Origin: Burkholderiales bacterium
GTDB lineage: Bacteria; Pseudomonadota; Gammaproteobacteria; Burkholderiales; Burkholderiaceae_E
NCBI GenBank assembly: GCA_003577305.1
Contig: QEVL01000014.1
Location: 1 to 64,000, forward strand
Length of the DNA stretch: 64,000 nucleotides
Direction of reading: 5' to 3'
The position numbers and the translations under genes are program-made. Shown here in pieces: positions 9,798 to 52,424 of this stretch. The notes beneath the pieces were generated by a model that saw only the letters and a program-made list of their open reading frames with translations, was not told the origin of the DNA and ran no database searches. Positions within the stretch are counted from its first letter, which is position 1; every line of letters starts with the position of its first letter.

Positions 9798-9908
9798 GGA
9801 TCTCCTCCGTTGTTCCGGCCGGTGGCCGATTGCGGCGGCCAGCGTGCCGGGCCGTCTATCAGCCGCATGCTAGTGGGGCAATCGGCACGGGAACAAGGCA
9901 CAATCGAT

Positions 9909-9931: not shown

Positions 9932-9955
9932 TTTCGAAAAGGGGTGACACTCTCC

Positions 9956-36114: not shown

Positions 36115-36909
36115 TCAACCGGCAGCCTTGAACTCTTCGAGCGCCAGCTGGGTCTTGCCCGCGCCTGCCGTACCGATCACGCGCAGGCGATGCGGCTGCA
36201 TTTCGAAGCTTCGTGCCCAAGTGGTCAGCCCGCCCGAGATCCGCTTGTAGTGCTTGTGTTCGAGCCGGCTGAGCGCGTCCACGCTCGGGGCCACCTGCAC
36301 GACGTCCGAAAGGAACGCGTGGACGTCGCATGCGTCGGGTGGCTCGGCGCCCCCCGTGTCGCGACGGCTCGCGGAACAGGAGCGCTTGTCGAACAGCTGG
36401 AGGATTCGCGACACGAGTTGGTCCCTGCGGCCCGCGTCGATCACCCGCGTCGGGTCGATTGAGGCGGGCGGGGAACCGGACAGGGTGCAGTCGGGCAGGT
36501 AGAGCAGGTGGTCGACGTCCAGCCTTCGTCCCGGGCAGCGGCGCCCGAATTCGCGCATCAGGTTGTGCAGGTTGCGTGTGACCTGCGTGCGCAGGCCCTT
36601 CGCACCCGTGGCGTAGACCTTGACGAGATCGCCATCGGACATCGTCACTGCCCTGTTCGTCTGCTCGATGGCGACGACTTGGCCGAGCCGGCTCACGACG
36701 ACGAAGTCGATCTCGCCGTAGAACGCCGCCCGCGCGTCGGCATCCGCCCAGTGAACACCGTGGTAGACGGTGTACTCGTCGGACCGCTCGCGCTTGCGCC
36801 GCTCGAGCGTCTCGATCTTGCGGGCCGCGTGCCCGCGGCGGGTGGCCGCGTCGGTTTTGTCGGGGATGATCCCAGCGATGGCCTGTCGGCGATGCCGAGG
36901 TCGATATGA
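36115..36909 (-). pseudogene. NERD-domain / P-loop helicase-like gene, remnant
   Basis: The open frame has no start codon upstream of the conserved part: IPDKTDAATRRGHAARKIET and YTVYHGVHWADADARAAFYG come before the first usable GTG (36696). FYGEIDFVVVSRLGQVVAIE is the core of a nuclease-related (NERD) domain, and near the end VIGTAGAGKTQLALEEF is a Walker A of UvrD-like NERD helicases. The frame then stops, so the helicase body (usually several hundred residues) is missing. Both ends are damaged, consistent with a decayed gene in a mobile region. Confidence 0.7.
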
Positions 36910-37036
36910 TTACCAATACGATCGGTCTGCGGGTGCTTCCGATCCGGCATCGAGGCGCCGGTGCAATCCGCAGGGATCGGCCGGGCATCCGATGCCGGCC
37001 CTGCGCCGAACAGCGACGGCCCGATGCCTTGCCTGG

Positions 37037-38977: not shown

Positions 38978-39270
38978 CCTTGATTCTCCAAGGGTTCTTG
39001 CGGTAACGAGTACGGATGGGCCACTGGCACCCATCGCGTCGTCCCGTTACGTCCCTTGGCATTGGCCTCAATTGGCGACAGCGAAATCGCAACCGCGGAC
39101 GGGGTTCCCCGACCGGGTATGCCTCGTGTAGCGAGCGCGGTTCATACGCACCCCTGGAACAGGCTAAGAGCAGTCGTCGCCGCGCGATCGCGCCGCTGCA
39201 TGCCCATATAAAACGCAGTCGCTATTCGTATCGAGCGGGTCGTCCGCTCGACACGATTCGAGAGTGGATC

Positions 39271-39903
39271 ATGGGAACAGCGCCTTCGACGCCTTGGCTT
39301 CGCGACCGCGACGGATATCCCATCCTGCCGCCCGGCTACGTTGCGACTCTGAACGAAATAGTGAACCCGAGCGTGACGCTACCGTCCGGGATGGGAAGCC
39401 TTCCCGTCTTAGTCGGTCACTTCGCGTCGCATCCTGTCGGCCTCGATGCGACACAACCGCGGCACGTCGGATGGGGTTGCATTGGCACGGACTCAATACC
39501 GCTGCTTACGTTCCGGATGCAGATTGGGCCGACTCTTGCGTACTGGCTCGCGAATCCGGCCGACCCGCAAACGTGGAAGCTGCTCGACGCCTGGCATGCA
39601 GCAGGAAAGATGGCTCTATCCGCGCACTTTGGCGAAACGCGGCCCATACTCGTCTGGACCTTTCGTATCACACCGCAGTTGAACGCGCTGCGCCGATGGA
39701 CTTCGCAAGCGGGCGACCGTGCGACCGCGGACTTCATATCGCGTGCAGGTCGCGCCCTGCTCGACGGCATCCTATCGAGACTGGCGACATCGGATATCGC
39801 GAGCGTGCAGAAGCTTGAGCACGTCACCGGATGCATCGTCTGTCCTCGGGGAATAGGGACCGTTCGCATCAGTGTGGTGAATGAAGGTGTAACGCTGCAT
39901 TGA
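39271..39903 (+). CDS. Unknown protein, mobile-region gene
   Basis: A 210-aa frame from ATG 39271, soluble, with no motif I recognise. It contains DRDGYPILPPGYVATLNEIV and WKLLDAWHAAGKMALSAHFG. A 13-bp gap separates it from the small HTH gene, so both are likely one transcript divergent from the large recombinase. The 236 bp before it hold AT-rich TATAAA at 39208, a possible -10 element, but no clear -35. Confidence 0.6.
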   Translation: MGTAPSTPWLRDRDGYPILPPGYVATLNEIVNPSVTLPSGMGSLPVLVGHFASHPVGLDATQPRHVGWGCIGTDSIPLLTFRMQIGPTLAYWLANPADPQTWKLLDAWHAAGKMALSAHFGETRPILVWTFRITPQLNALRRWTSQAGDRATADFISRAGRALLDGILSRLATSDIASVQKLEHVTGCIVCPRGIGTVRISVVNEGVTLH

Positions 39904-39916
39904 CCGGGAGTCACTG

Positions 39917-40141
39917 ATGAGCACAATCTTCGGCATCGAAGTCATCTCGCTTCGCGAGCTCGCTGTGGCTCTCGATGTCACGCCCCGTGCAGTGCAGAAA
40001 TGGGTTGCCGCCGGCCGATTCCCCCATCCGCTGGCCATCGGTCGCAACCGAGTCTGGAGGAAAGATGACGTACGCGTGTGGCTCGAGCGGAAGTTTGCGG
40101 AAGCACCGAGTGAAACGCTCCCGCGCAGCCGCGGTGCGTGA
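39917..40141 (+). CDS. Small HTH protein, excisionase/AlpA-like
   Basis: This 74-aa protein has a MerR-like HTH_17 fold pattern: ISLRELAVALDVTPRAVQKW, then VAAGRFPHPLAIGRNRVWRK with the basic wing. Such small proteins serve as excisionases or regulators of integrase genes. GGGAG stands 7 nt before the ATG. It lies between the two recombinase genes of the region. Confidence 0.8.
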   Translation: MSTIFGIEVISLRELAVALDVTPRAVQKWVAAGRFPHPLAIGRNRVWRKDDVRVWLERKFAEAPSETLPRSRGA

Positions 40142-40202
40142 GGGTACGCTCGAGGGAGGGGCACGGCGGCCGCAGTGTAGGGGCGGCCGTGTTGTCGTTC
40201 TA

Positions 40203-40847
40203 CTAGCCGAGGAATGCCGAGATGTCACGCGCATGCACGGCGTCTTCGACCTCGGCGATGTCCGGTCTTTCCCGCCCGAAGGCCCATTGTGCGAAGACGC
40301 TGCGTGCGGCATAGGGCAAGTCTCGCGCACGACAGTAGCGGATCGCGCCATGCCGATAGACGGGTATGCTGACCGGCGCCGGAAGCGGCGGCGCCTCGGT
40401 CGTCCCCCAGGCTTCGTACGCGAGACGTCTTTGCATGACTGACCAGAGCGAGATCGAAGCGGGCGTGTTCGTTGGCGTCAACGAGGCGCATTCCGACATC
40501 GATTCAGCGTCCGGGAGCAGGTGTATTTCCGCGAGATCGCACCGATCGAGCGTGACCGATAGTGCCGCAAGCCGAAGACCGGTCGGGATCCGTGTGACTG
40601 ATTTGCACGCGACAAGTTCCAGGCAGCGTGCGACGAGCGCCACCAGGGGTTCCGACCAGCGCGGATACCCGGGCAGGACCGCCTGGATTGCTTGGTCATC
40701 TCCCGACGGATCTAGCGTTATCGCAAAGTCGGCAACACGTCCCCCGGCCAGGCATTTGATGGTGCCGCGGCGTCGCACGAGGAGCCTCCTTGGGGAGGAG
40801 ACGAACGCGCGAAGCTCGAGCGAGATCTGCAGTTCGCAGGGGTTCAT
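40203..40847 (-). CDS. Unknown protein, last gene of recombinase operon
   Basis: A 214-aa frame coupled by a 4-nt overlap (40844-40847) to the upstream gene. No recognised domain. The middle is rich in Ala/Leu/Cys (ALVARCLELVACKSV), and the C-terminal part has YCRARDLPYAARSVFAQWAF. Base composition matches the operon. Function unknown; presence in the recombinase operon suggests a mobile-element role. Confidence 0.6.
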   Translation of the reverse strand: MNPCELQISLELRAFVSSPRRLLVRRRGTIKCLAGGRVADFAITLDPSGDDQAIQAVLPGYPRWSEPLVALVARCLELVACKSVTRIPTGLRLAALSVTLDRCDLAEIHLLPDAESMSECASLTPTNTPASISLWSVMQRRLAYEAWGTTEAPPLPAPVSIPVYRHGAIRYCRARDLPYAARSVFAQWAFGRERPDIAEVEDAVHARDISAFLG

Positions 40848-41371
40848 GCGGATCGGGGTGGTGAGCTAAGGGCGGCAGCCTGAATTGCCAGGAGAGGCAA
40901 TGGTCGGGGGCTGCGCGCGACCCCGGTGAGCCTGGACAGAAGTTCTTCGGAGGCGGCCTGTCGATACAGGGCCTGCAGGCGATCGATCGCTGGGGACCCA
41001 CCCACGCTCTCCACGTCGCCGCCGCCCGGAAGGGGCGCGGACGCGATTGCATACACGAGCAACGTAATCGACTGAAGCGCCAGGCTCCGGACGTCAACGT
41101 CGTCACCCGCGAGTTCGAGTTGTCGCAGGTCGCGAACGACCGCGAGGAGCCAGGCGTCGGGAAGTGCGGAGGGAAGCGCAGCCTCAGCTCCACCGGACAG
41201 CACCGCGTGGACCAGAGCGTCCAGCGGTGTCACGCCCACCGAGGAAACCCACGGTCTCGGTCCAGGTGCCTCGGGGAGGAGACTTCCTCTTTGCCACGCC
41301 GACGTGGCGGCGGCGAGCTCTGGCCAGAAACCGAAACTCCCGAGTCGGTCAATCAATCGGCTTGAATCCAT
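40844..41371 (-). CDS. Unknown protein, third gene of recombinase operon
   Basis: From ATG 41371 the product is 175 aa (MDSSRLIDRLGSFGFWPEL...); a longer frame to 41518 would run close to the XRE gene but its extra part looks non-coding. Helical, with DDVDVRSLALQSITLLVYAI. No family recognised. It overlaps the following gene by 4 nt. Confidence 0.6.
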   Translation of the reverse strand: MDSSRLIDRLGSFGFWPELAAATSAWQRGSLLPEAPGPRPWVSSVGVTPLDALVHAVLSGGAEAALPSALPDAWLLAVVRDLRQLELAGDDVDVRSLALQSITLLVYAIASAPLPGGGDVESVGGSPAIDRLQALYRQAASEELLSRLTGVARSPRPLPLLAIQAAALSSPPRSA

Positions 41372-41521
41372 GGGTGACACCACGCGCGTGAGATGCGCCA
41401 GAGCTTGCGGGTGGGTCACGGCAGGCGAAAACGCCGAAACTCGTCGTTGACAAATGTGCTGTATTCGGCTCAAGGGGCGATGGGGAACCTTCACGCTGCC
41501 TCGTGACAACTCAGCCAAGGG

Positions 41522-41884
41522 TCAAGGCACCTTGCCAGGATCGCGATGCCGCAATCGTGTCTGAAGCCACCGCCACACCGCCACGCGCTCGTGAATCGGC
41601 GCCTGGGCAAGCAGCACGTAACAGGCGAACTCGAGCGTGGAATGAGCGAGTAGGGAAGCGACCGGCACATCATGGAGTCGTGCGATACGCCCCACGAGCT
41701 CGAGATCTGGTCGTGTCGGCGACTGCTCGAGGCGCCGGATCCTCGCTGTCATCGATTCGGGTTCGGAAGGCGAGAGACGCGCCGCGAGAGATTCGATGCT
41801 CAGGCCGCGCCGCCGGCGCAGATCCCGCAGTCGGTGCGCGACTAGATGTGCCAGCAGCCCCTGCGAGTGCGGGCGCGTACTCAT
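41522..41884 (-). CDS. XRE-family HTH regulator
   Basis: The 120-aa protein has an N-terminal HTH of the XRE type: LRDLRRRRGLSIESLAARLS, followed by RIRRLEQSPTRPDLELVGRI. The helical tail ends in WLQTRLRHRD. It overlaps the recombinase gene by 4 nt (41881-41884), so it is translated with it and may repress the operon. Confidence 0.82.
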   Translation of the reverse strand: MSTRPHSQGLLAHLVAHRLRDLRRRRGLSIESLAARLSPSEPESMTARIRRLEQSPTRPDLELVGRIARLHDVPVASLLAHSTLEFACYVLLAQAPIHERVAVWRWLQTRLRHRDPGKVP

Positions 41885-43218
41885 GCTGTGGCTCTCGAAG
41901 CAGCGCGGTTGCCGTTGAAAATATCAGCGTGCGCGCGAAGCAGTGCGCCCACGCCGACGGGGGCTGCAATGGCGTCGGGTGACATTGCCAGGACCGCCGC
42001 CGCGCTCGGCACCGCCGAGGCCGCGTTAGCTGCCGCTGCGTTGGTGCGGTGGACATTGAGAGCGTCTTGCGCGACCGCGACGATGTCCTGGGGGCGGTCC
42101 CGGAGGTAGCGCTGCAGCATGCGCATGTCGCGATGCGACGAGAACTGCAGCAAGACATGGGTCGAGATACCTGGCGTGCGCGCGAGCCGCGTCAGGAAGG
42201 TCGCGCGAGCGTCATACAGGTGAGCATCGAGAACGCCGGCAGCGGCGAGTACCTGGTGGTTCCACGCTCGCTCGACGGTCTCCTCACTAATGGGCAGCAC
42301 ACGGCCGTCACGTGGGCTCGGAATGCGTTGCAGAAGGGCAACCGCGGCGTCGAGCAAGGGTTGCTTGTGGAGCCTGCCATTCTTGGTCTTGCGGAGCAGC
42401 ATGTAGCGCTCATCGAGATGCACATCAGACCACTGCAAAGCGAGCAGCGACCCCGGGCGGCAGCCGGTGACGAGCATCAATCGGAAGAGCCAGCGCGGGT
42501 AAGCGTTCTTCGCCCGACCCAGCATCGCGTCGATTGCCTCGACTTCGTCTTCGTCGTAGACCCGGTCGCGCTCGGCGTTGCATCGCAGACGGGTGTCCAT
42601 CTTGGCTGCGACGACGGGGTTGCGGGTCAGGGTGGTGAGGCCAAACGTGCGCGCGCGATTGATGATGGCCGACGCAATCGCGAGTTCGCGCGCAATAGTC
42701 GTGTCCTGCACCGGCTCGCCGGTCCACGGCGTGACCTGCCTCCGGCGCCGGCGGATGTACTCCGCGAAGTGCAAGTGGCTGAGCTTAACCAGCGGTACGG
42801 CGGCAAGCCCGAGGTTGCGCACGAGCGCGCGCACGCGGCGTGCGTACTCGTTCGCGTCGCGCGAATGTGGGACGCGCTCGGAGAGATAGCTCTCGGCAGC
42901 CTCGCCGAACGTCAGCCGGGCGTGCCTGGACGGGTCGACGATTGCGTCGCGCGCGCTGTCGTCGTGCAGTTGTGCCTGGATGCGAACCGCCTGGGCCCGG
43001 GTGTCGGCGGCGATGCGCAGCCCCGCCCGCTGGTCGACGACGAGAAACTTGGTTTCGAGCTGGCGCAGGGCGGCCGCGGGGTGACCGCCCGTCGCTAGCT
43101 CGGTGCAATAGGCCTGGGCGGCCTTCTTTTCGTTGATGCTGAACTGCTTGAGCAGGTCAGGGCGCAGGGGGACTTCGACGACGAAAGGCGACCGGTTCTC
43201 GATGTAGGCCACGGGCAA
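41881..43218 (-). CDS. Tyrosine recombinase, first gene of a four-gene operon
   Basis: The 445-aa protein has an N-terminal SAM-like core-binding domain (about 103-195) and a catalytic domain. The catalytic domain has Arg254 in TGCRPGSLLALQW, Arg338 in LYDARATFLTRLA (the His of the usual HxxR box is Tyr), His362 in FSSHRDMRML and nucleophile Tyr371 in LQRYLRD. It reads away from the satellite attachment site at 43337 and is not closely related to either other recombinase in the window. The three following genes are coupled or closely spaced. Confidence 0.85.
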   Translation of the reverse strand: MPVAYIENRSPFVVEVPLRPDLLKQFSINEKKAAQAYCTELATGGHPAAALRQLETKFLVVDQRAGLRIAADTRAQAVRIQAQLHDDSARDAIVDPSRHARLTFGEAAESYLSERVPHSRDANEYARRVRALVRNLGLAAVPLVKLSHLHFAEYIRRRRRQVTPWTGEPVQDTTIARELAIASAIINRARTFGLTTLTRNPVVAAKMDTRLRCNAERDRVYDEDEVEAIDAMLGRAKNAYPRWLFRLMLVTGCRPGSLLALQWSDVHLDERYMLLRKTKNGRLHKQPLLDAAVALLQRIPSPRDGRVLPISEETVERAWNHQVLAAAGVLDAHLYDARATFLTRLARTPGISTHVLLQFSSHRDMRMLQRYLRDRPQDIVAVAQDALNVHRTNAAAANAASAVPSAAAVLAMSPDAIAAPVGVGALLRAHADIFNGNRAASRATA

Positions 43219-43272: not shown

Positions 43273-43336
43273 CTCACGATCGCCCTCACTGGCGCCTGAG
43301 GTCAGTGAGCGCTATCGCCGGGAAGTCCGCTGGACG
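43273..43336. repeat. 64-bp imperfect repeat, copy 2, next to the tRNA attachment site
   Basis: Aligns to 11492-11555 at 49 of 64 positions. Its centre forms the hairpin CTCACTG / CAGTGAG. It directly abuts the left attachment repeat, so before satellite insertion it stood just downstream of the tRNA-Val gene, where it may have been the tRNA terminator. A partial likeness (AGTG.GCGCTATCGC...CCGCT) is also seen at 52307-52333. Confidence 0.6.
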
Positions 43337-43382
43337 CTGGTGGGCGGCACAGGGTTCGAACCTGTGACCCCTGCCGTGTGAA
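43337..43382. repeat. Left attachment repeat (attL), 46 bp of tRNA-Val 3' end
   Basis: Identical to 52349-52394. It contains the tRNA 3' half from the anticodon loop to the CCA end but no 5' half, so it is an attachment scar and not a gene. Confidence 0.93.
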
Positions 43383-43442
43383 TGCGGGGAAATAGTGGTT
43401 TCGCGCACATCCGCGCACAGACTTTCCCTCTGAAACAGTGCT

Positions 43443-43493
43443 TTAGTGTGCGCCGAAATGCGCGTATGATTTGGACAGTTTTTGGACAGTCGG
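43443..43493. repeat. Arm-type-like repeats near the left end of the satellite
   Basis: TTAGTGTGCGC (43443-43453) and a 23-bp block with two TTGGACA units (43471-43493) recur near the right end at 52305-52315 and 52273-52295, the latter with one mismatch. They are just before the integrase start and are candidate binding sites for the integrase or the AlpA-like protein. Confidence 0.6.
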
Positions 43494-43501
43494 ACCAAAT
43501 C

Positions 43502-44683
43502 ATGGCGAAGCACTCGATCACGACGGTCAAGGGCCGGGAGGCGCTCAAGTCGCGCCATGCGCCGTACTGGCATCGCATCAGCAAGGGCGCTTACCTCGGG
43601 TTTCAGAAAACCAGTGCGACTGCGCCGGGGACGTGGGTAGCGCGGTTCCACGACGATGAGGGCCGACAGACGCGACACGCGCTCGGCGGCTTCGGCGACC
43701 TGCCGCCGTCCGATCGTTTCGACGCTGCGAAAGCTGCGGCCGAGGAATGGTTCACGCACAAGGGACGCGGCGGTACCAGCGAGGCCAGGACGGTGCGCGA
43801 CGTGTGCGGGGCATACGTCCAACACCTGCGCGACGAGGGCCGCGAGAACACGGCGAAGGATGCCGAGGGACGGTTCCGGCGATGGGTCTACTCGGACGCG
43901 AAGCTGGCCGCGACCCCGGTCATGAAGCTGACCGCCAAGCAGGTTGACGACTGGCGCAAGAAGCTGCGCAAGACGCTGGCGATCCCCCAGGACAAGGCGA
44001 AGCCGGCGACGAAGCCGCGCACCGATTCGTCGCTGAACCGCGATATGGCCGTGCTCAAGGCCGCGCTTAACCTCGCGGTGGAGAACGGCGACGCAACATC
44101 GGATCACGCCTGGAAGGTGAAACTCAAGCCGGTGAAAGCCGCCGACAACCGGCGCGACGTGTACCTCGACAGCAGGCAGAGGAAGGCGCTGATCGAAGCC
44201 GCGCCGGCCGACCTGGCGAACCTGCTGCGGGCCCTGTGCCTGCTGCCGCTGCGGCCCGGCGCGGTGGCCGCGCTGAATGCGGGGAGCTTCGACAAGCGGC
44301 TCTCGACGCTGGTGGTCGGCAAGGACAAGGCCGGCAACGATCGGCGAATCGCGCTGCCGCCCGCCACGGCTGCATTCTTCGCGGCGCTGGCGAAGAACAA
44401 GCTACCGGCCGCGCCGCTGCTCACCCGCGCCGACGGCAAGCGATGGGACAAAGACGCCTGGAAGTACCCGATCAAGGATGCGGTGAAGGCCGCCAAGCTG
44501 CCCGCGACTGCGACAGCCTATTCGTTGCGTCACTCGACGATCACCGACCTGATCGCGCTGCACAGGTTGCCGACGCTGACGGTCGCGCAGCTATCCGGAA
44601 CGTCGGTGGCGATGATCGAGCGGCACTATGGGCACTTGCTGCAGGATCAGGCGCGTGAGGCGCTCGCGGGGCTGGCGCTGTGA
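43502..44683 (+). CDS. Satellite integrase (tyrosine recombinase)
   Basis: The 393-aa protein starts at ATG 43502, after the arm-type repeats. Earlier in-frame starts would lie in the attachment site. It has an N-terminal DUF4102-like start (TTVKGREALKSRHAPYWHRI), a core-binding domain and the catalytic residues: Arg in LLPLRPGAVAALN, Arg343 in TAYSLRHSTITDL, and Tyr376 in MIERHYGHLL. It catalyses integration in the tRNA-Val gene. Its stop overlaps the next start by 4 nt. Confidence 0.92.
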   Translation: MAKHSITTVKGREALKSRHAPYWHRISKGAYLGFQKTSATAPGTWVARFHDDEGRQTRHALGGFGDLPPSDRFDAAKAAAEEWFTHKGRGGTSEARTVRDVCGAYVQHLRDEGRENTAKDAEGRFRRWVYSDAKLAATPVMKLTAKQVDDWRKKLRKTLAIPQDKAKPATKPRTDSSLNRDMAVLKAALNLAVENGDATSDHAWKVKLKPVKAADNRRDVYLDSRQRKALIEAAPADLANLLRALCLLPLRPGAVAALNAGSFDKRLSTLVVGKDKAGNDRRIALPPATAAFFAALAKNKLPAAPLLTRADGKRWDKDAWKYPIKDAVKAAKLPATATAYSLRHSTITDLIALHRLPTLTVAQLSGTSVAMIERHYGHLLQDQAREALAGLAL

Positions 44684-45273
44684 CCGCCGCGACGATCTTG
44701 GTCGAGTGGCGCGACGGCCAGCAAGCGGAGGTCTCGCGCGAGTTGTACGAATGGATCGTGGCGAGCGTGCCAGAGGCGGCCACGGCCGATGCACGGGCAC
44801 GTCTGTACGAGATCGGCTATCGGCTGTCGCGGATGGTGCCGGCCGTCGGCGACTCGACCGCGGAGACCGATCAGGAGCGGATCGCGCGACGCAACGCCGC
44901 GAGCAAGACGGTGGTTGATGCTTGGGATCGACTTATGCAAGCGATGGCCGATCACCCGACCTATCGCGGCGACCAGCACGACGCCTGCGAGCGGGCCGGC
45001 GTGAACATGACCGAGGCCGAGAAGTACGCGATCGCGCTGCGCGGCGTGATCGACGGATACCGGACCCCCGCACGGGCACCAAAGGGTGGCCGGCCGCCAC
45101 GGCTGCGGATGCTGTGGCTGGCAGAGTACGCTGAGCAGATCATGCCAATGCTCGGCATCGGCGAGCAGCGCGCGGCCGCAGTCATCTGCGGCGTCGTGAA
45201 ACTTGTGGACGTGACCGTTGACGCAGAGACGCTGCGCCAGACGATGCGGAACCGTCGTGTAAGGAATGGGTAG
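44680..45273 (+). CDS. Unknown satellite protein after integrase
   Basis: The 197-aa product begins at GTG 44680 within the integrase stop (GTGA). No known domain. It contains SRELYEWIVASVPEAATADA and WLAEYAEQIMPMLGIGEQRA, so it is mostly helical. Tight coupling implies joint expression with the integrase. The next gene is 123 bp on, after a short spacer in which I see nothing distinct. Confidence 0.65.
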   Translation: MTAATILVEWRDGQQAEVSRELYEWIVASVPEAATADARARLYEIGYRLSRMVPAVGDSTAETDQERIARRNAASKTVVDAWDRLMQAMADHPTYRGDQHDACERAGVNMTEAEKYAIALRGVIDGYRTPARAPKGGRPPRLRMLWLAEYAEQIMPMLGIGEQRAAAVICGVVKLVDVTVDAETLRQTMRNRRVRNG

Positions 45274-45396
45274 GCAAGAGCTGGGGGGATAGTTACACCG
45301 AGTCCCGGTCTCCACGATGCGCACATAGACGGCGCGCGTCGTTTCCAAGAGTAGGCAGGCGGCCTACCCGATGCGCCCGAGCATGGAGCGCATCAA

Positions 45397-45636
45397 GTGA
45401 AGAAATCCGGTCACAGCACCGTTCCGCCGCACACGCAGGTTCCCGAAACCCTGCACCCCGAGCAGCGTCTGCGGTTCGAAACCGTGGCGGCGCTCACTGG
45501 CTGGCAGCGCAGCAAACTCTACGCCGAAATCCGCGCGGGCCGGTTCCCGGCGCCCGAGCGCGACGGGCCGCGCTGCTCGCGTTGGCGAGCGGGTAGCGTC
45601 CTGGATGCGCTGCGCGCACGCGGGGTGCCGGCATGA
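45397..45636 (+). CDS. AlpA-like HTH regulator of the satellite
   Basis: The 79-aa protein starts at GTG 45397 with GGAG 8 nt upstream. RFETVAALTGWQRSKLYAEI followed by RAGRFPAPERDGPRCSRWRA is the AlpA/MerR-type HTH with wing. In P4-like satellites and PICIs AlpA-type proteins control excision and early genes. Its stop overlaps the next mini-ORF (ATGA at 45633-45636). Confidence 0.85.
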   Translation: MKKSGHSTVPPHTQVPETLHPEQRLRFETVAALTGWQRSKLYAEIRAGRFPAPERDGPRCSRWRAGSVLDALRARGVPA

Positions 45637-45779
45637 GGCCGACCTGGCGAGGGGCGGGCGGCGAGCGGGCGCTCGCCGGGACCGCAGAGGACAGCAAACG
45701 CGCGCCGATTCTAAACGACGACGACGCCGCCGGCAAACAAGCGGCGCTGCGCGCGTCTGGGCAGTCGAGTTCGCGGTGA
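45633..45779 (+). CDS. Mini-ORF, 48 aa, coupled in satellite operon
   Basis: ATG 45633 overlaps the AlpA-like stop, and the stop at 45777-45779 overlaps the next start (GTGA at 45776). The product is hydrophilic, with a KRAPILNDDDAAGKQAAL segment. No family known. The perfect 4-nt overlaps on both sides are the main support. Confidence 0.5.
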   Translation: MRPTWRGAGGERALAGTAEDSKRAPILNDDDAAGKQAALRASGQSSSR

Positions 45780-45838
45780 ACCTGCAGCGCGCCGACGTGG
45801 CGCTGCTCGCGCTCGCGTTCGTCGGAGGTGCATCGTGA
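45776..45838 (+). CDS. Mini-ORF, 20 aa, coupled in satellite operon
   Basis: From GTG 45776 to TGA 45838, VNLQRADVALLALAFVGGAS: a short hydrophobic peptide. It overlaps both neighbours by 4 nt (GTGA at each end). It could be a leader or coupling cistron for the OB-fold gene rather than a functional protein. Confidence 0.35.
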   Translation: MNLQRADVALLALAFVGGAS

Positions 45839-46170
45839 TCGGCGCCGTGGTCACTGGAACACTGGTCGCCGATCCGGTCGAACGCACGACGCAGGCCGGC
45901 AAGCCGTTCACGACCGCGACCCTGCGCGTGCCGGCCGGCGAGGATGCGTTGTTCATCGGCGTCGCTGCCTTCGAGCCGGTGGCCGCCGAGCGCCTCGCGC
46001 GCATGACGAAGGGCGGCACCGTCGCCGCCTGCGGGGTGCTCGAACAGAACACCTGGACCGCGAAGGACGGCAGCGAGCGCACTGGCTGGCGGTTGACCGC
46101 ATCTGAGGTGCTGACCGCGTACAGCGCGACGAAGAAACGGCGCGCGGCCGAGGGAGACGCCGATGCATGA
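45835..46170 (+). CDS. OB-fold, SSB-like protein of the satellite
   Basis: The 111-aa protein from GTG 45835 reads MIGAVVTGTLVADPVERTTQ, then KPFTTATLRVPAGEDALFIG and CGVLEQNTWTAKDGSERTGW. This is the strand pattern of single-stranded-DNA-binding proteins of the SSB/PriB kind, with aromatic residues. It lacks an acidic SSB tail. It overlaps the primase gene by 8 nt and should act with it in replication. Confidence 0.75.
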   Translation: MIGAVVTGTLVADPVERTTQAGKPFTTATLRVPAGEDALFIGVAAFEPVAAERLARMTKGGTVAACGVLEQNTWTAKDGSERTGWRLTASEVLTAYSATKKRRAAEGDADA

Positions 46171-48205
46171 GGTCGACCGCGCGCGCGCCGCGCTGCACGC
46201 GCTCGACTCCGGCTGCCCGCGCGACGAGTGGGTTTCGCTCGCGATGGCTGCGAAGGCTGCCGGGCTCGACTTCGACGACTTCCACGAATGGAGCAGACCG
46301 GCGCACAACTACCGCAACGAGGCCGACTGCGCATCCGTCTGGCGTTCGATCGCCGAGTCGGGCGGCATCGGCGCCGGAACGCTGTTCGCGAAGGCCCGCG
46401 AGGCCGGATGGTCGGAGCCGGTGAACGGCCACAGGCCGCGCCAGAGGCCGCAGGAGCCGCGCAAACCGGGCGGCAAGGCCGATGGGCCATCCTTCGACTT
46501 CGCGGCCGTCTGGCGCGATTCTGAGGCGGCCACGGCGCAGCATCCGTACATCGCGCGCAAGCTCGGGCTGCCCGACGGATTGCGGGTCTATCGCGGGCCG
46601 CTGACGCTCAACGGCCAGGCGCTCGACGGTTCGCTGCTGGTGCCCGCATTCGACGCCGACGGCAACCTTCAGTCGTGGCAGGCGATCCCGCCGGCCGGCG
46701 ACAAGCGCAACGCGCCGGGCGCGACCATCCGGGGCGCGTCGTTCTCGGTGGGCGGCGCTGTGCATGACGGCGAGCCGGTTTACCTGTGCGAAGGCATCGG
46801 CCAGGCGTGGAGCGCACATCAGGCAACGGGCAAACCCGCCGTCGTCTGCTTCGGCGCGGGCAACGTCGAGACGATCGCCAGGCGAATGCGTGAGCGTTAC
46901 CCGGTAACGCGCATCGTCATCGTCTGCGATGCCGGCAAGGAGCGCGACGGCGAGCGCATCGCGCGGGCGGTGGGCGGCGCATGGGTCGAGATGCCGGCCG
47001 GCTCTGCCGCGAACTTCGACTTGAACGACTACCACCAACAGGTGCGCTCGCTGCCAGCGGTGGCCGAGCTGCTCGCGCAGGCCCGCGAACCGGAGCCGGC
47101 CGACGACGACCGAGACGACGACCGGCCGCGCGAGATCAACATTGCCGCGCTCGCCGAGCGAGTACCCGAGCCGCCGGCATTCATCGTGCCCGATTGGCTG
47201 CCGGCCGGCGAGGTGACGCTACTGGCCGCAAACGGTGGCACCGGCAAGTCGGCGACCGCGCTGCGCCTGGCCGTGTGCCTGTGCACCGGGCGCGACTTCC
47301 ACGGGCTGCCAGTCGCGCAGCGCAGCGTCGACTTCGTTTCCTTCGAGGATGCAGAGCCGGTGATTCACTGGCGCCTGCATCGCATCTGCCGGGCGCTGGG
47401 CGTCGCGCCGGCCGACGTGGCCGATGGGTTGCGCATCTTCGACGGCACGAAGTGCGTATCCGCGTGGTACTCGCGCGGACAATTCGGCGAAACCGGGCCG
47501 ACCGCTGCCTTTCACGCGATGGCCGAGCGCATCGGCGGGCCGGGCCGCGTCGTCATCGTGGACGGATCGAGCGACACCTTCGCCGCCAACGAGAACGACC
47601 GCGCCCAGGTGAAGGCGTTCACTCGGATGCTGCGCCGGCTGATTGCCGCCGACGGTGCGCTGCTGCTGCTCGCGCACGTCGACAAGCTGGCCGCCAAGTC
47701 GGGCGCCGAGTCGCTCGGATTTTCCGGCTCGACCGGCTGGAACAACGGCGTTCGCTGCCGGTGGTACATGTACGTCGAGACGGACGACGAGGGCATCGAG
47801 TCGGGCCGCATCGCGCTCGAAGTGCGCAAGTCCAACCTCGGGCGCACTGGCGCACGGATGCTGCTCGCGTTCGATGAGGCAAGCGGCACTTTCGAGCGCG
47901 TCGACACCGAGACGCCGCAGCGCGGGCGAGCGTTCCAGAGGGCAGACGAGGCCGATGCGATCCTGCAGATCATCCGCGCCGCTTGGGCCGCTGGCGACCC
48001 GATACCGGCGGCGACCGGCGGGACGCGCACTGCACACAGCGTCTGCGAGGCTCGGGGCGAGCTGCCCGCAACCCTCAAGGGCCGGCGCGGCCGACAACGC
48101 TTCAATCGCGCCCTCGAAGAATTGCGCGCTGCCGGCGCTGTGCGCACTTCGACAGTCAGGACGGGCAGCCGGAACACGCGCGAGGTGCTCTATGCGCCAG
48201 ATTGA
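46163..48205 (+). CDS. Satellite primase/helicase (PriCT_2, Toprim, RepA-like ATPase)
   Basis: The 680-aa protein has an N-terminal PriCT_2-like region (ALDSGCPRDEWVSLAMAAKA, residues 14-33), then a Toprim-like segment (PVYLCEGIGQAWSAHQATGK and RIVIVCDAGKERDGERIARA). A RecA-like ATPase domain of the RepA/AAA_25 type has Walker A LLAANGGTGKSATALRL (about 353-369) and Walker B-like VVIVDGSSDTFAANENDRAQ. It ends with a winged-helix-like tail. No archaeal-eukaryotic primase domain is evident. It should drive replication from the nearby iterons. It partly overlaps the preceding gene, so expression is coupled. Confidence 0.85.
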   Translation: MHEVDRARAALHALDSGCPRDEWVSLAMAAKAAGLDFDDFHEWSRPAHNYRNEADCASVWRSIAESGGIGAGTLFAKAREAGWSEPVNGHRPRQRPQEPRKPGGKADGPSFDFAAVWRDSEAATAQHPYIARKLGLPDGLRVYRGPLTLNGQALDGSLLVPAFDADGNLQSWQAIPPAGDKRNAPGATIRGASFSVGGAVHDGEPVYLCEGIGQAWSAHQATGKPAVVCFGAGNVETIARRMRERYPVTRIVIVCDAGKERDGERIARAVGGAWVEMPAGSAANFDLNDYHQQVRSLPAVAELLAQAREPEPADDDRDDDRPREINIAALAERVPEPPAFIVPDWLPAGEVTLLAANGGTGKSATALRLAVCLCTGRDFHGLPVAQRSVDFVSFEDAEPVIHWRLHRICRALGVAPADVADGLRIFDGTKCVSAWYSRGQFGETGPTAAFHAMAERIGGPGRVVIVDGSSDTFAANENDRAQVKAFTRMLRRLIAADGALLLLAHVDKLAAKSGAESLGFSGSTGWNNGVRCRWYMYVETDDEGIESGRIALEVRKSNLGRTGARMLLAFDEASGTFERVDTETPQRGRAFQRADEADAILQIIRAAWAAGDPIPAATGGTRTAHSVCEARGELPATLKGRRGRQRFNRALEELRAAGAVRTSTVRTGSRNTREVLYAPD

Positions 48206-48515
48206 GTGCGTCGCAGCCGGTACGGTGTGCGTCGCTGCTGACGCCGAGCGCGTCGCAGATGGCACAAAAGCGCGTCGCAGTCGGTACGAAGGTGCGTGCG
48301 TGAGTGACCCCCCATACCCCCCGCTCGCTGTGCGCGCTGAGACGCGCGCCAGCAGCGACGCAGGTTCGGCGCGTTGGTTGGTGATTGCCGCGCTGCTCGC
48401 GTCACCGGCTGCCGAGTCCCGCCGCCCGCCACGGCAGTCCTCAGCCCCGACTGCGCTGGGTCGCCATCCGGACTCAGGCCAGCGCCCGCGGAGCCGATCG
48501 AGCCAGTGGCTCTAG
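48192..48515 (+). CDS. Possible small ORF across the iterons
   Basis: ATG 48192 lies inside the end of the primase gene and the frame runs 107 codons through the iteron array. The product is rich in Ala, Arg and Ser (REP-like VAAGTVCVAADAERVADG) and looks unlike a folded protein. It may be open only because of the 21-bp repeat period. Otherwise the stretch 48206-48611 holds no gene I can support. Confidence 0.2.
   Translation: MRQIECVAAGTVCVAADAERVADGTKARRSRYEGACVSDPPYPPLAVRAETRASSDAGSARWLVIAALLASPAAESRRPPRQSSAPTALGRHPDSGQRPRSRSSQWL
48208..48293. repeat. Iteron array, candidate replication origin of the satellite
   Basis: The 9-mer GCGTCGCAG starts at 48208, 48250 and 48272, with GCGTCGCTG at 48229: spacings 21, 21 and 22 bp, two helical turns. 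A broken fifth core (GCGTGCGTG) follows at 48294. Copies 1 and 4 also share CGGTACG after the core. The array starts 3 bp after the primase gene. Iterons beside the rep/primase gene mark origins in P4-like and PICI satellites; here this is inference. Confidence 0.6.
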
Positions 48516-48617
48516 GTTCTTCCTGGAGCTTTTCAACCACGGTTGCGATGAGCCCCGAAGTCGCGCTAGTGACTGGCCGGTCAGTTAATTCCCGATGCGC
48601 CCCATAGGTGCATGAAC

Positions 48618-49139
48618 ATGGCAGGAAAGATCAGTACTTCGCAGTTTGCCTCCCAAGTCGGCGTGACCGGCTCGGCGATCCGCAAGGCGATCGCTGCCGG
48701 TCGGCTGACTGCCGACGCCGACGGGCTGCTGGACCCGGTTGCGGCCCTGGCGCAGTGGCAGCACAACCGGCGACGCCGGCGCCGGCCGAGAGGCGCCGAT
48801 CCGGCGGTCGAGGGTGCGCCGCCACCTGCAGGTGGCGGCTTCTGGCAGCACCGAACCGAGCGCGAGGCCGCCGAGGCCGCGATCGCGCGGATGCGTGAAC
48901 GCGAGATGGCCGGCGAGCTGGTGCGCCGCGCCGAGGTCGAGCGCGAGCTGGCCGGCCGAATCATCGCGCTGCGCGAGCACCTGAACACGATGGCCGACCG
49001 GCTGTCGGCCGTGGTCGCGGCTGAGTCCGACCAGGCGGCGTGTCGCCGCGCGATCGCCGACGAGGTGCGCCAGGCGCTGCGCGGTTTCGCGGCCGAGCTC
49101 GAGGTGGCGAAGTCATCGACCACGAACCCCCTACCCTGA
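48618..49139 (+). CDS. Terminase small subunit (Nu1-like)
   Basis: The 173-aa protein (175 with the ATG at 48612) begins with a Nu1-type HTH: ISTSQFASQVGVTGSAIRKA, then IAAGRLTADADGLLDPVAAL. A basic linker and a long helical part EAAIARMREREMAGELVRRA, typical of oligomerising small terminases, follow. AGGTG at 48606-48610 is 7 nt before the ATG at 48618. Small terminases recognise packaging sites; a satellite carrying its own can redirect a helper phage's large terminase to its DNA. Confidence 0.8.
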   Translation: MAGKISTSQFASQVGVTGSAIRKAIAAGRLTADADGLLDPVAALAQWQHNRRRRRRPRGADPAVEGAPPPAGGGFWQHRTEREAAEAAIARMREREMAGELVRRAEVERELAGRIIALREHLNTMADRLSAVVAAESDQAACRRAIADEVRQALRGFAAELEVAKSSTTNPLP

Positions 49140-49154
49140 CCAATGGAGATCCCC

Positions 49155-49442
49155 ATGACCGACGTCTACGCACTCCCTCCCGAAATGACAGGCCGCATCC
49201 CTGCTGTGCCAGGGCTCTGCACGGAGTGCCTGTGCGACCCGCGCAAGTTGATGTTCTACCGGCCGGCGCCGAGCATCGTCGTGGCGTACTGCGAACACAA
49301 CTTCACCGGCGCCGTCGTGAATCTCGCCGACGAGCGCCCGCTGTGGCGGGCGTACGCACCAGTTAGCCAGGACGAATGGCGCGAGATGCTCGCCGACACA
49401 GCTGCGTTGCACCTCTCGAGAACGCAGTCCAAGCTTGATTGA
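49155..49442 (+). CDS. Unknown Cys-containing small protein
   Basis: A 95-aa protein from ATG 49155 (GGAG 6 nt upstream). CTECLCDPRKLMFYR and a later CEHNF give C-x2-C-x-C and C-x-H spacing that could bind zinc. No family recognised. It lies between the terminase small subunit and the capsid gene. Confidence 0.6.
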   Translation: MTDVYALPPEMTGRIPAVPGLCTECLCDPRKLMFYRPAPSIVVAYCEHNFTGAVVNLADERPLWRAYAPVSQDEWREMLADTAALHLSRTQSKLD

Positions 49443-49589
49443 CACGGCCCGCCAACCGTGATGCAATGCCGTTCAGCGACGAGCGTTGCTCGCCGTTCCC
49501 ACGCATCCGGTCATTGCCACGCGCTGTCAGGATTCGGGATCGGAGTCAAGCAACGCGCCGAGGCGGTGAACCGCTGGAACGCATCAGGC

Positions 49590-49641
49590 CCAGCCGAAAG
49601 GCTGGCTCTCATTGCGCCCGGCGGTTTCTTTTTTCCGGGCG
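49590..49641 (+). other. Two hairpins in the leader of the capsid gene
   Basis: CCAGCC-GAAA-GGCTGG (49590-49605) is a GNRA-loop hairpin. GCGCCCGG (about 49613-49620) and CCGGGCGC (about 49634-49641) enclose a 13-nt T-rich loop. They sit 25-75 bp before the capsid ATG and might attenuate or stabilise the late transcript. A 63-codon frame over this stretch lacks support. Confidence 0.45.
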
Positions 49642-49665
49642 CACGCTGATGCCGGGAACGCCTCG

Positions 49666-51480
49666 ATGAAGATGCACTTCCGCACGCTCGGCTTCGAGCG
49701 TGCAAAAGCCCGAGACCGCACCGTGCCGGTCGTGATCGCGACCGAAGAACCGGTGCGCCGCGAGCACGGGCGATACGGGGTGATCGCGGAGGTGCTCGAC
49801 TGCAGCTCGATCAACGCGATCGACCTGCACCGCGCGCCCCTGCCGCTGATCGTCGGCCACGAGTCGAGCCCACCGCCGATCGGCATCGTCGAGAACCTGC
49901 ACGTAGCCGACGCCAAGCTTCGCGGCCTGGCCCGCTTCGGCGAGTCGACGCTAGCCGAAGAGGTTTACCAGGACGTACTGCGCGGGATCGTGCGTAACGT
50001 TTCCATCGGATACACAACGATCGGCGAGCCGCGCCGCGTCGGCGACAGCAACACCTATCGCTTCAAGTTTTGCCCGCACGAAGTGTCGGTGGTCGGAGTT
50101 CCGGCCGACCCGCAAGCGGGCTTTTTCCGTTCACAGGAGAACGTCATGGAAGAGAGCAACGGGGTTGTGGTCGAAGACGACCGCAAGAGCCGGTCCGAGC
50201 GTCGCGCCGCGGCACGCACCGAGAACGACGTGCGCGATCTAATCAAGGTCGGCGAGCACTACAAGTCGTTCGGCGGCCTGGAGGCCGCTGCGCAGGCCGT
50301 ACGCGAGGGCCGCGATATGGAGTGGCTCCAGCGCGAGCTCTTGCGCCGCTCGGCCTCGGGCTTCTCTACCCCGCGCGGCATCGAAGAAGGCTTCCTCTCG
50401 GGCGAGCGCCGGCAGTATTCCCTGTTGCGCGCGGTGCGCGCCCAGGTCGATTCCGAGTTCGCCCGGCGCGAAGCGGGCTTCGAGCTCGAGGTGAGCCGCC
50501 ACCTGGCGCAGCGCGTCGGGCGCGAGCCGCGCGGACTGTTCGTGCCGCCCGAAGCGCTCACGCATCGTATGCAGGTCGTTGGCACCGGCACGCACGGCGG
50601 CAACCTCGTCGCGACGAATCTGCTCGCCGATCAGTTCATCACGATGTTGCGCAACCACTCGCTCGTCATTCGCATGGGGGCGACCGTGCTGCCCGGCCTG
50701 GTGGGCAACGTCGCGATCCCGCGGCAGGACGGCCCCGGCGCGATCGGATGGGTGGCGGAAGGCACGGCCGTGGGCACAGGTGCGTTGACGTTCAGTCAGG
50801 TCACGATGGTGCCGCAGACGGTCGGTGGCTACGTCGACATCAGCAGGAAGCTGATGCTGCAGGGAACGCCCGAGGTCGAGTCGCTGGTGCGCAACGACCT
50901 GGTTGCGCAGATCGGCCTGGGCATCGACGCCGCCGCGATCAACGGTTCGGGCAACGCACCGGAGCCGAAGGGCATCCTCAACACGGCCGGCATCGGCACG
51001 GTCGTGATGGGCACCCACGGCGGCGCTCCAAGCTGGGATATGGTGCAGCAGCTCGTGCGTGACGTGGCTGTTGCCAACGCACACATGGGTGCGCTCGGCT
51101 TCCTCACGAACGCGAACGTCAACTACAAGCTGTCGACGACGCCGCGGCAGGCCTCGGGCGTCGAAGGCAACTTCGTCGTCTCGGCCGACAGCCCGATCGA
51201 TGGGGACGGCTTCGGGCGCCTGGCAGGCTACCGGCTCGGCGTCTCGAACAACGTGCCCGCCACGTTGACGAAGGGCACATCGACCAGCGTGTGCTCGGCC
51301 GTGATTTTTGGCAACTGGACGGACCTGATCATCGGCATGTGGTCCGCCATTGACGTCCTCGCCGATCCGTACTCGCTGTCGACGCAGGGGGCGCTGCGCG
51401 TCATCGCCATGCAGGACGCCGATATCGCGGTGCGGCGCCCTGCATCGTTCTCGGCTGCGAAAGACGTGTTGACGGCGTGA
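49666..51480 (+). CDS. Prohead protease-major capsid protein fusion (HK97 type)
   Basis: The 604-aa protein starts at ATG 49666. Residues about 20-160 form an HK97-type prohead protease: RTVPVVIATEEPVRREHGRY, LPLIVGHESSPPPIGIVENL (catalytic His) and GIVRNVSIGYTTI (catalytic Ser). HEVSVVGVPADP follows. A charged linker and scaffold-like region lead to the HK97-type capsid domain from about residue 300: MGATVLPGLVGNVAIPRQDG, NAPEPKGILNTAGIG and SADSPIDGDGFGRLAGYRLG. One chain thus provides protease, delta-domain and shell. No portal gene accompanies it. Confidence 0.9.
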   Translation: MKMHFRTLGFERAKARDRTVPVVIATEEPVRREHGRYGVIAEVLDCSSINAIDLHRAPLPLIVGHESSPPPIGIVENLHVADAKLRGLARFGESTLAEEVYQDVLRGIVRNVSIGYTTIGEPRRVGDSNTYRFKFCPHEVSVVGVPADPQAGFFRSQENVMEESNGVVVEDDRKSRSERRAAARTENDVRDLIKVGEHYKSFGGLEAAAQAVREGRDMEWLQRELLRRSASGFSTPRGIEEGFLSGERRQYSLLRAVRAQVDSEFARREAGFELEVSRHLAQRVGREPRGLFVPPEALTHRMQVVGTGTHGGNLVATNLLADQFITMLRNHSLVIRMGATVLPGLVGNVAIPRQDGPGAIGWVAEGTAVGTGALTFSQVTMVPQTVGGYVDISRKLMLQGTPEVESLVRNDLVAQIGLGIDAAAINGSGNAPEPKGILNTAGIGTVVMGTHGGAPSWDMVQQLVRDVAVANAHMGALGFLTNANVNYKLSTTPRQASGVEGNFVVSADSPIDGDGFGRLAGYRLGVSNNVPATLTKGTSTSVCSAVIFGNWTDLIIGMWSAIDVLADPYSLSTQGALRVIAMQDADIAVRRPASFSAAKDVLTA

Positions 51481-51692
51481 TGCCCGCCGGCCGGCGCGGT
51501 GGGGTTCCCGTGAATGCGACGCCAACATCGGCACGCGAAGCGGCGACGCTGGCGATGCTCGCGAAACGCAAGTTGCGGCTCACCCCGTTCGGCCGCGGGT
51601 GGCGCATCGTCGGCACAGGCGTGGACGTGCTCGTGACCGACTGGCGCCGCATCCACCCAGACGACCTGCGCCCGCTGCGGCCGCGCGAATGA
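51480..51692 (+). CDS. Small unknown satellite protein 1
   Basis: About 70 aa from ATG 51480, which overlaps the capsid stop by one base. Basic, with KLRLTPFGRGWRIVGTGVDV followed by LVTDWRRIHPDDLRPL. It overlaps the next gene by 4 nt. Possible head-completion or regulatory role; unknown. Confidence 0.55.
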   Translation: MPAGRRGGVPVNATPTSAREAATLAMLAKRKLRLTPFGRGWRIVGTGVDVLVTDWRRIHPDDLRPLRPRE

Positions 51693-51961
51693 CGACCGAC
51701 GTTGCCGCGTGGCTCGCGGCTGGTGCCGAGCTCGAGGCCGAGCTGCTGCAGTCGCCGCCGCTCGAGCTATCCGCGATCGACGCAGCCTGTGCCGCGCTCA
51801 ATGCCGGCGGGCACCTCCGCCTGGTTGTCGACCTTCATCCGCCGCCCGGCGAACCGCGGCTGCGCGTCCGCGTGATCGAGCGCGGCTGTGCCTGGTGGCT
51901 GTCGGACAGCTGGGCGCGTGTCGCGCCTGCAGCGCACGCATTGGGCGCCGCGACCTGCTGA
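51689..51961 (+). CDS. Small unknown satellite protein 2
   Basis: 90 aa from ATG 51689 (ATGA overlap). The first part is helical and acidic (LAAGAELEAELLQSPPLELS), followed by a strand-rich part (HLRLVVDLHPPPGEPRLRVR). Last coding gene of the satellite operon before a strong terminator. Confidence 0.55.
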   Translation: MTTDVAAWLAAGAELEAELLQSPPLELSAIDAACAALNAGGHLRLVVDLHPPPGEPRLRVRVIERGCAWWLSDSWARVAPAAHALGAATC

Positions 51962-51981
51962 CCCGCGCCACGCCCGCGCCG

Positions 51982-52002
51982 GCCGCCTTCGGGCGGCTTT
52001 TT
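51982..52002 (+). terminator. Rho-independent terminator of the satellite operon
   Basis: GCCGCC-TTCG-GGCGGC followed directly by TTTTT (51998-52002). The stable UUCG loop and T-run make it a standard terminator, 20 bp after the last gene. Confidence 0.88.
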
Positions 52003-52007
52003 CGGTC

Positions 52008-52048
52008 GTGATCACCGGGGTGTAGAAGGTGGTGATCACCGTGGTGTA
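52008..52048. repeat. Tandem 17-bp repeat with GTGATCAC palindrome
   Basis: GTGATCACCGGGGTGTA (52008) and GTGATCACCGTGGTGTA (52032) differ in one base and start 24 bp apart. They lie in the 388-bp stretch 51962-52349 that otherwise holds the terminator, a doubtful short frame and the right arm-type repeats. Function unknown. Confidence 0.5.
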
Positions 52049-52098
52049 TCGGCGCGCTGCCGATCGCGCGCCCTGGGCGGTTCTGGCGGCTCGGCGAG

Positions 52099-52308
52099 AT
52101 GTGGAAGGTGGCGCCGAGGAACAAGGGTGTACGGCTCGCCGGCAAAGATGCGCTCGGCTGTTCCGTAGTGGAACAGCCGAAGGGCGACGTTCCGAGCCTC
52201 GCCGATCTCGGCATCGACCGGAAGGTGGCGATGGTGGCGCGGCGCGGGCGCGAGCGGTATCCCGAACCTCGTTTGGACACTTTTTGGACAGTCGGCCGAG
52301 CAGGTTAG
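52099..52308 (+). CDS. Possible remnant ORF near the right end of the satellite
   Basis: 69 codons; the segment PSLADLGIDRKVAMVARRGR looks like the end of a phage replication or ParB-like protein (typical LADLGI-K-S/A pattern). No good ribosome-binding site is seen. It is partly overlapped by the arm-type repeats. May be a fragment. Confidence 0.3.
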   Translation: MWKVAPRNKGVRLAGKDALGCSVVEQPKGDVPSLADLGIDRKVAMVARRGRERYPEPRLDTFWTVGRAG

Positions 52309-52315
52309 TGTGCGC
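52273..52315. repeat. Arm-type-like repeats near the right end of the satellite
   Basis: A 23-bp block with two TTGGACA units (52273-52295; 22 of 23 identical to 43471-43493) and TTAGTGTGCGC (52305-52315). Same orientation as the left copies but in the opposite order relative to the attachment site. Confidence 0.6.
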
Positions 52316-52348
52316 TATCGCTGAAAGCCGCTTGTTTCCTGAGTATTT

Positions 52349-52394
52349 CTGGTGGGCGGCACAGGGTTCGAACCTGTGACCCCTGCCGTGTGAA
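52349..52394. repeat. Right attachment repeat (attR), inside tRNA-Val
   Basis: 46 bp identical to 43337-43382, reaching from 1 bp beyond the CCA end into the anticodon loop of tRNA-Val. The tRNA stays intact because the 5' half is the host's own. Confidence 0.92.
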
Positions 52395-52424
52395 GGCAGT
52401 GCTCTACCGCTGAGCTAGCCGCCC
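52350..52424 (-). tRNA. tRNA-Val (anticodon CAC)
   Basis: The 75-nt cloverleaf has acceptor GGGCGGC/GCCGCCC, D-arm AGCTCAGCGGTAGAGCA, anticodon arm CTGCC-TTCACAC-GGCAG and T-arm ACAGG-TTCGAAC-CCTGT; CCA is encoded. The loop gives anticodon CAC, reading GUG valine codons. It is the integration target of the satellite to its left and has its own promoter on the right. Confidence 0.96.

Follow-up and report, generated by a model that had tools for sequence, protein, structure and literature searches.

The 9,058-bp element at positions 43337-52394 of a 64,000-nucleotide stretch of a Burkholderiales genome (contig QEVL01000014.1; the whole stretch is hereafter the window) probably represents a separate lineage of phage satellites, one that encodes a prohead shell and no portal vertex. 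Such an element would build its own shell, use its own terminase small subunit (TerS) to recruit the packaging motor of a helper phage, and take the portal, connectors and tail from that helper. An earlier note, made from the sequence of the window, had described a 9-kb capsid-encoding satellite in tRNA-Val(CAC) that lacked large terminase (TerL), portal, connector, tail and lysis genes. Both descriptions held up, the first through a 48/49 repeat, an empty site in a congener and the family matches of the open reading frames (ORFs), and the second through ORF scans that recognized no such genes and a search of the window for TerL and portal that returned nothing.

Boundaries and gene content of the element

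A 49-nt direct repeat delimits the element (43337-43385 and 52349-52397; 48/49 identical; spacing 9,012); its right copy is the 3′ part of tRNA-Val(CAC) and its left copy duplicates the same tRNA end. A 44-nt core of this repeat occurs in exactly two exact copies in the window, compared with a mean of 0.00 in 100 shuffles. The congener G067 carries the unoccupied site (locus L197), in which the sequence to the left of the left attachment site (attL), 43273-43336, continues directly into tRNA-Val (92% over 113 nt). The recognizable genes of the element all lie on the + strand between the repeats:

43337-43382 (no strand): attL, copy of the tRNA-Val 3′ end
43470-43493 (no strand): TTTGGACA repeat pair near attL (repeat family D4), possible integrase arm site
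43502-44683 (+): tyrosine integrase (phrog_1, 2.7e-33; Pfam Phage_integrase below cut-off)
44680-45273 (+): 197-amino-acid (aa) ORF without family match
45397-45636 (+): AlpA-type excisionase/regulator (Pfam 3.9e-5, above cut-off)
45835-46170 (+): single-strand binding protein (SSB; 9.9e-9)
46163-48205 (+): PriCT_2/Toprim/AAA_25 primase-helicase (Pfam and PHROG scans)
48207-48362: iteron array YGCGTCGCWG, probable replication origin (units at 48207, 48228, 48249 and 48271 on the + strand and at 48353 on the - strand)
48612-49139 (+): TerS (phrog_57, 5.2e-24; no Pfam match above cut-off)
49143-49442 (+): 99-aa ORF with CxxC and YCEH
49612-51480 (+; alternative start 49666): prohead protease/HK97 major capsid fusion (phrog_617, 1.4e-113; Peptidase_S78 and Phage_capsid above cut-off)
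51477-51692 (+): 71-aa ORF overlapping the capsid stop, without family match
51689-51961 (+): 90-aa ORF without family match (scanned with a longer start too)
52099-52308 (+): 69-aa ORF without family match, doubtful gene
52272-52295 (no strand): second TTTGGACA repeat pair (family D4), near attR
52349-52394 (no strand): attR, 3′ part of the intact tRNA gene
52350-52424 (-): tRNA-Val(CAC), integration target

The succession of an integrase at one end, an AlpA regulator, a primase, a putative origin and then encapsidation genes is the layout of phage-inducible chromosomal islands (PICIs) as given in PMC6092414. Scans of ten element ORFs against the Pfam and PHROG libraries, with one further small ORF, gave no match to any family of large terminases, portals, connectors, tail proteins or lysis proteins, and a weak DUF4055 match in Pfam (0.0041, below cut-off) lies within the primase-helicase. 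Eight ORFs in the element reach 300 aa: the integrase, the primase-helicase, the fusion and five others, which lie across known genes in different frames and have no PHROG match. When we compared the window with 14 TerL and 15 portal proteins by tblastn, nothing appeared at E 0.01. Nor did the scanned ORFs, several small ones of which match nothing, include a match to the capsid size genes Sid and Psu of P4-like satellites. The element has in common with capsid-forming PICIs (cf-PICIs) its own capsid and maturation protease, and the window ORF scans and tblastn recognized none of the portal, TerL, HNH and head-tail connector genes of that group.

The same tRNA appears to be occupied elsewhere in the genus. 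Six congeners (G057, G060, G061, G064, G070 and G073) have additional 45-68-nt copies of the tRNA-Val end, which suggest further islands at this site, and in G072 (locus L194, near position 2332) the similarity to the window extends 74 nt beyond attR into the right end of the element, so that G072 may carry an island with a related attachment region. Immediately to the left of the element, 36115-43218 is a second likely mobile region, with a tyrosine integrase (41881-43212, - strand; Pfam 1.9e-17), a helix-turn-helix regulator and a protein of 665 aa whose similarity to integrases is weak and below cut-off.

Related elements and their capsid lineage

Searches for relatives yielded six further elements bounded by attachment sites (att), listed below, and eight relatives on partial contigs (L018, L051, L052, L055, L069, L177, L178 and L192).

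L012: tRNA-Pro(GGG); 116-nt repeat, 91%
L011: beside tRNA-Ser(TGA); 13-nt match only, weak att
L047: Thiobacillus metagenome-assembled genome (MAG), tRNA-Arg; weak 26-nt att (one gap, one mismatch)
L049: Hydrogenophilales MAG, tRNA-Asn; att-bounded
L057: one-contig genome G219, tRNA-Val(CAC); att-bounded
L176: another order of the class, tRNA-Arg; att-bounded

The family scan matched 7 of 74 genomes, the window included; the other six regions were fetched, L015 was left out, and two elements (L011 and L012) were gained. A wider scan matched 33 of 399 genomes (13 regions fetched), and further scans gave 10 loci (three of them, L050, L053 and L048, duplicates of L012, L011 and L018); 10 matches in 369 (three regions fetched, including L180 from G664, which was not labelled); and 8 in 101 (two new regions fetched besides G219). 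L054 and L016 were labelled neither satellite nor phage. Among the partial contigs, L178, L051 and L055 break off within the capsid gene, and L018 and L177 measure 3.4 kb and 6.4 kb; these five received the satellite label from similarity and capsid neighbours.

The seven att-bounded elements, the window's included, have outer lengths of 8,882-9,624 bp and occupy tRNA-Val (twice), tRNA-Arg (twice), tRNA-Pro, tRNA-Ser and tRNA-Asn. The earlier note had anticipated many elements of 8-12 kb with conserved gene order and different integration sites; the size range and the variety of sites were borne out (8.9-9.6 kb, five tRNA types), while the att of L011 and L047 are weak and the order varies in L057 and L176.

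Other collections gave matches as well. Of 50,697 phage records, 91 matched, all at <60% identity, and among the matches listed (40 of the 91) were records of 29-44 kb; 202 plasmids matched, again all at <60% identity. A scan of viral contigs returned at least 600 stretches and at least 578 relatives, of which 80 were kept: 22 with TerL and portal, 27 with portal only and 31 with neither, most of the 31 having little upstream sequence. Only L069 among these 31 has the arrangement TerS, small ORF, capsid. L192 was found by scanning viral contigs with the small protein of L049; the same scan with that of L012 found no relative. L192 is an IMG/VR contig, and a search of it for terminal repeats, which would hint at a circular form, found none.

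The capsids of these elements form a lineage of their own. We built a tree of 57 rows, comprising 13 labelled satellites, 38 fusion capsids beside a portal gene (from phages or contigs) and 6 unlabelled rows, and rooted it at the midpoint. All 13 satellite capsids fell on one side of a branch with support of 100/98, with the 38 portal-adjacent capsids outside, a result that none of 500 label shuffles equalled. One of the 6 unlabelled rows (L052) lay within the satellite clade, and L052 then showed the satellite gene order: on its 3.9-kb contig a primase-type ORF is accompanied by a TerS-like gene, a 91-aa ORF and the capsid. Within the clade, terminal branches are up to 1.03 changes per column long (for the window capsid itself), and the lineage is therefore old.

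In the 15 satellite loci, tblastn showed neither TerL nor portal next to a capsid of the clade. The search of these loci and of L065, a variant described below, with the 14 TerL and 15 portal proteins gave one match (E 0.010), which lies outside the L057 element; the queries were of the GpA/portal_2 kind plus two cf-PICI-like loci, so that very different families could escape them. Earlier query sets (nine and ten) had detected portal in 49 and TerL in 22 of the 80 viral contigs. In the eight elements surveyed, no unassigned ORF of at least 300 aa was left in the reading direction.

The fusion gene is under purifying selection: the ratio of nonsynonymous to synonymous change (dN/dS) was 0.10-0.24 in six pairs for the capsid gene, and 0.17 and 0.13 in two pairs for the protease part. 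His65, Ser113 and Glu139, the columns that we take from knowledge of HK97 to be the S78 protease triad, are kept in 10/10, 11/11 and 13/13 of the labelled satellites that reach each column and in 38/38 phages. A structural model of the fusion protein (pLDDT 77, pTM 0.51) had HK97-fold capsids as its best PDB matches, and the helical middle region of the model may act as a scaffold. Between L049 and L069 synonymous differences were 0.58 in the protease part versus 0.20 in the whole gene, a difference that points to recombination within the fusion.

The usual gene order in the family is integrase, replication gene, TerS, small ORF, fusion and att, and the run of TerS, one small ORF and capsid is found in the window, L011, L012, L047, L049, L069, L192 and L052. 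Around this core the modules vary. Integrases differ among members. So do the replication genes: the window has the PriCT_2/Toprim/AAA_25 type, L011, L012 and L052 a DUF5906/D5-type primase, L049 PriCT_2/DUF3987, L192 DUF3987, and L047 and L057 other primases. L192 and L049 align at 76-80% in three main pieces from the replication gene to the capsid, and their integrase regions do not align; L049 and L069 have capsids that are 91% identical and TerS proteins in different groups. As judged from these comparisons, modules are exchanged between members. L192 also has a 101-aa ORF (1462-1767) that matches phage late transcriptional activators (phrog_836, 6.2e-10), possibly a link to late expression of the helper.

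Most relatives carry a ~100-aa protein of another family than the window's 99-aa ORF between TerS and capsid. It gave no convincing family match for A2 and A6 (best 0.007), and its model, a helical hairpin (pLDDT 77.5, pTM 0.62), had no PDB match better than E 0.64; small terminases were among the matches listed, from which we draw no conclusion. The window ORF itself has a weak likeness (30% over 46 aa) to an L176 ORF that precedes the capsid.

Downstream of the replication gene, the window has four 10-nt iterons at spacings of 21, 21 and 22 nt and a fifth in the opposite orientation. None of 20,000 single-base shuffles placed four iterons in that interval. Because the pattern is no rarer than chance across the whole window (6 observed, 5.3 expected), it is the clustering, rather than window-wide rarity, that makes the array meaningful. 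In L011, L012, L047, L049 and L057, inverted repeats with arms of 27-34 nt (noted without a shuffle control) lie directly 3′ of the replication gene, with sequences that differ from the window iterons. The region after the replication gene fits a putative origin matched to the element's own initiator.

A family of this kind could also consist of prophages that have decayed and lost their TerL, portal and tail genes. VP882-like phages have the same fusion gene family, with TerS and fusion in the same order, and are full phages with TerL, portal and tail, unlike the element; their order is TerS, TerL, joining protein, portal, fusion capsid, so that the genes absent from the element are those between TerS and capsid. 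Lone tail or neck genes also remain in L011, L176 and L065. Against decay stand the single capsid clade, the near-constant size, the ends at att, the purifying selection and the module exchange, and we found neither variable deletion end points, broken genes nor a scattered phylogeny. The two outcomes that the earlier note had named as fatal to its proposal, decayed prophages with variable end points and the missing head genes in closely related intact copies, did not materialize: the element ends at att, and no capsid of the clade was seen beside TerL or portal, although on six partial contigs hardly any sequence, or none, precedes the capsid or small ORF. We consider decay very unlikely, and the elements are best regarded as an old family whose members sit at different chromosomal sites.

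Proposed division of labour with a helper

Tailed phages need a portal for packaging and for joining the tail. Because the element encodes none, the helper would have to supply it. In the scheme that we favour, infection by or induction of a helper would lead to excision of the element, which would replicate from the iteron region and build shells from its own fusion protein, the protease and middle region of which would replace a separate protease and scaffold. The satellite TerS would then present satellite DNA to the large terminase of the helper, probably of the GpA type, and the helper would provide portal, motor, connectors, tail and lysis. Phages with a GpA-type TerL are suggested as helpers because the TerS family of the element is that of such phages. 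A more ambitious version, to which we give somewhat less than an even chance, is that these elements are a deep, shell-only lineage in which the virion is split at the portal, protease, scaffold and capsid reside in one satellite protein, TerS is swapped to follow the motor of the helper, and some members add a tape-measure protein that may set tail length.

The tape-measure variants stand outside the core claim. L176 encodes a neck-type protein as well as a tape-measure protein of 415 aa (8282-10098). L065, which is also outside the capsid tree, has a capsid without a protease domain and a 652-aa tape-measure protein (6567-8525), within a perfect 49-nt repeat at which no tRNA was called. Both may be satellites that set tail length.

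Several observations weigh against the shell-building satellite. The gene set is not uniform, because the att-bounded L176 has no recognizable TerS and carries the tape-measure and neck-type genes just mentioned, L011 has a neck-type gene before TerS (among the relatives scanned, only these two have neck-type genes) and in L057 the small ORF precedes TerS; in addition, profile comparison placed the 99-aa ORF of the window outside the ~100-aa family of most relatives. Satellite TerS proteins did not form one group in a tree in which most branches were weak and a long-branch warning applied. A search for helpers by GpA TerL (PF05876) and portal_2 (PF05136) in eight satellite-bearing genomes, the window's included, found neither at E 0.001 in 7 of 8, several of which are incomplete. 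Both genes do occur in G219, a complete genome, on two prophages that we take, from gene size and order, to be lambda-like in their capsids; these prophages have no match to the TerS of G219's own satellite and no fusion capsid. Finally, the satellite capsid homologue Ccm of SaPIbov5 cannot form a shell without the capsid protein of its helper (PMC8569155).

The TerS proteins of the window and of L011/L012 match the G219 prophages at 29-37%. We do not claim these prophages as a helper, since the TerS of G219's own satellite is unmatched and the satellite and the two prophages share no informative DNA.

The behaviour of Ccm points to a different role for the capsid gene, in which the satellite protein would co-assemble with the capsid protein of the helper and shift the heads to a smaller size. 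Ccm makes pentamers only and requires the helper capsid protein (PMC8569155), PmCI172 has a capsid homologue and produces small heads (PMC6092414), and the authors of PISP, a Vibrio satellite-plasmid, propose capsid redirection for its TerS, protease and capsid (PMC13230959). The available text of PMC8569155 identifies no protease for SaPIbov5, whereas the fusion protein of these elements has retained a protease, triad included, next to its capsid part and is under purifying selection, as an independent shell needs; the argument is indirect, and we regard redirection as rather unlikely. It is also conceivable that capsid and TerS interfere with the assembly of helper particles and that the island itself moves little, as Ccm blocks its helper (PMC5052747). 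The element's own replication genes, iteron array and integrase, the varied sites and the exchanged TerS indicate transfer, and we judge such an interference island highly improbable. Our preferred account thus remains a satellite that builds its own shell and borrows the portal.

Comparison with known satellites

Like the element, the Gram-negative PICIs PmCI172 and EcCICFT073 have an integrase, an AlpA/MerR-type regulator, a primase and origin and then encapsidation genes, and rely on a helper (PMC6092414). Two Gram-negative PICIs carry capsid homologues (PMC6092414), where the element has a protease-capsid fusion; the sections consulted mention no such fusion in these PICIs, which we compared by description and not by sequence. 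EcCICFT073 is without TerS and uses cos sites (PMC6092414), unlike the TerS-bearing element. In SaPIbov5, one of the cos-type Staphylococcus aureus pathogenicity islands, a satellite capsid homologue is combined with helper head proteins (PMC5052747, PMC8569155), as we propose for the element; Ccm forms pentamers only and has no protease identified (PMC8569155), in contrast to the fusion protease here.

PISP (TG93; 11.1 kb) resembles the element in that TerS, maturation protease and capsid are named and portal and TerL go unmentioned in the part of PMC13230959 at hand; it differs in being a plasmid with no detected integrase, in a capsid of PF03864 rather than PF05065 and in being found only in Vibrio. 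The earlier note's suggestion of a new satellite type therefore stands as regards the separate capsid lineage and gives way as regards the arrangement, for which the PICIs with a capsid homologue (PMC6092414) and PISP (PMC13230959) are precedents. In the literature searched, which did not include the original cf-PICI paper, we recognized no description of a satellite that is integrated, has protease and capsid fused and lacks both portal and TerL.

The cf-PICIs share with the element a satellite-encoded capsid and protease, and also encode portal, connectors, TerL and HNH (PMC10690885), more head genes, as the earlier note had said, than the element has. Sets resembling those of cf-PICIs occur in the genus and order of the window (L013, 11177-16429; L068, 6570-11556), with TerL, capsid, protease and portal in both and HNH in L068. 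In both, PF05065 and S78 are separate capsid and protease genes, and TerL and portal belong to other families. L068 is bounded by a 58-nt repeat; a clear att was sought for L013 and none was found.

If the proposed division of labour is right, it becomes testable whether the portal of one genome nucleates or docks in the shell of another and whether exchange of TerS lets satellites switch helpers. Capsid-encoding satellites would also extend to environmental Burkholderiales and their neighbours, and because SatelliteFinder did not flag PISP (PMC13230959), gene-model searches may miss comparable elements. The element is not a cf-PICI and most likely works in the manner of those Gram-negative PICIs that have a capsid homologue, or of PISP, described from Vibrio in 2026, with a capsid lineage of its own; it lies between the PICIs that only reshape helper heads and the cf-PICIs that take only tails.

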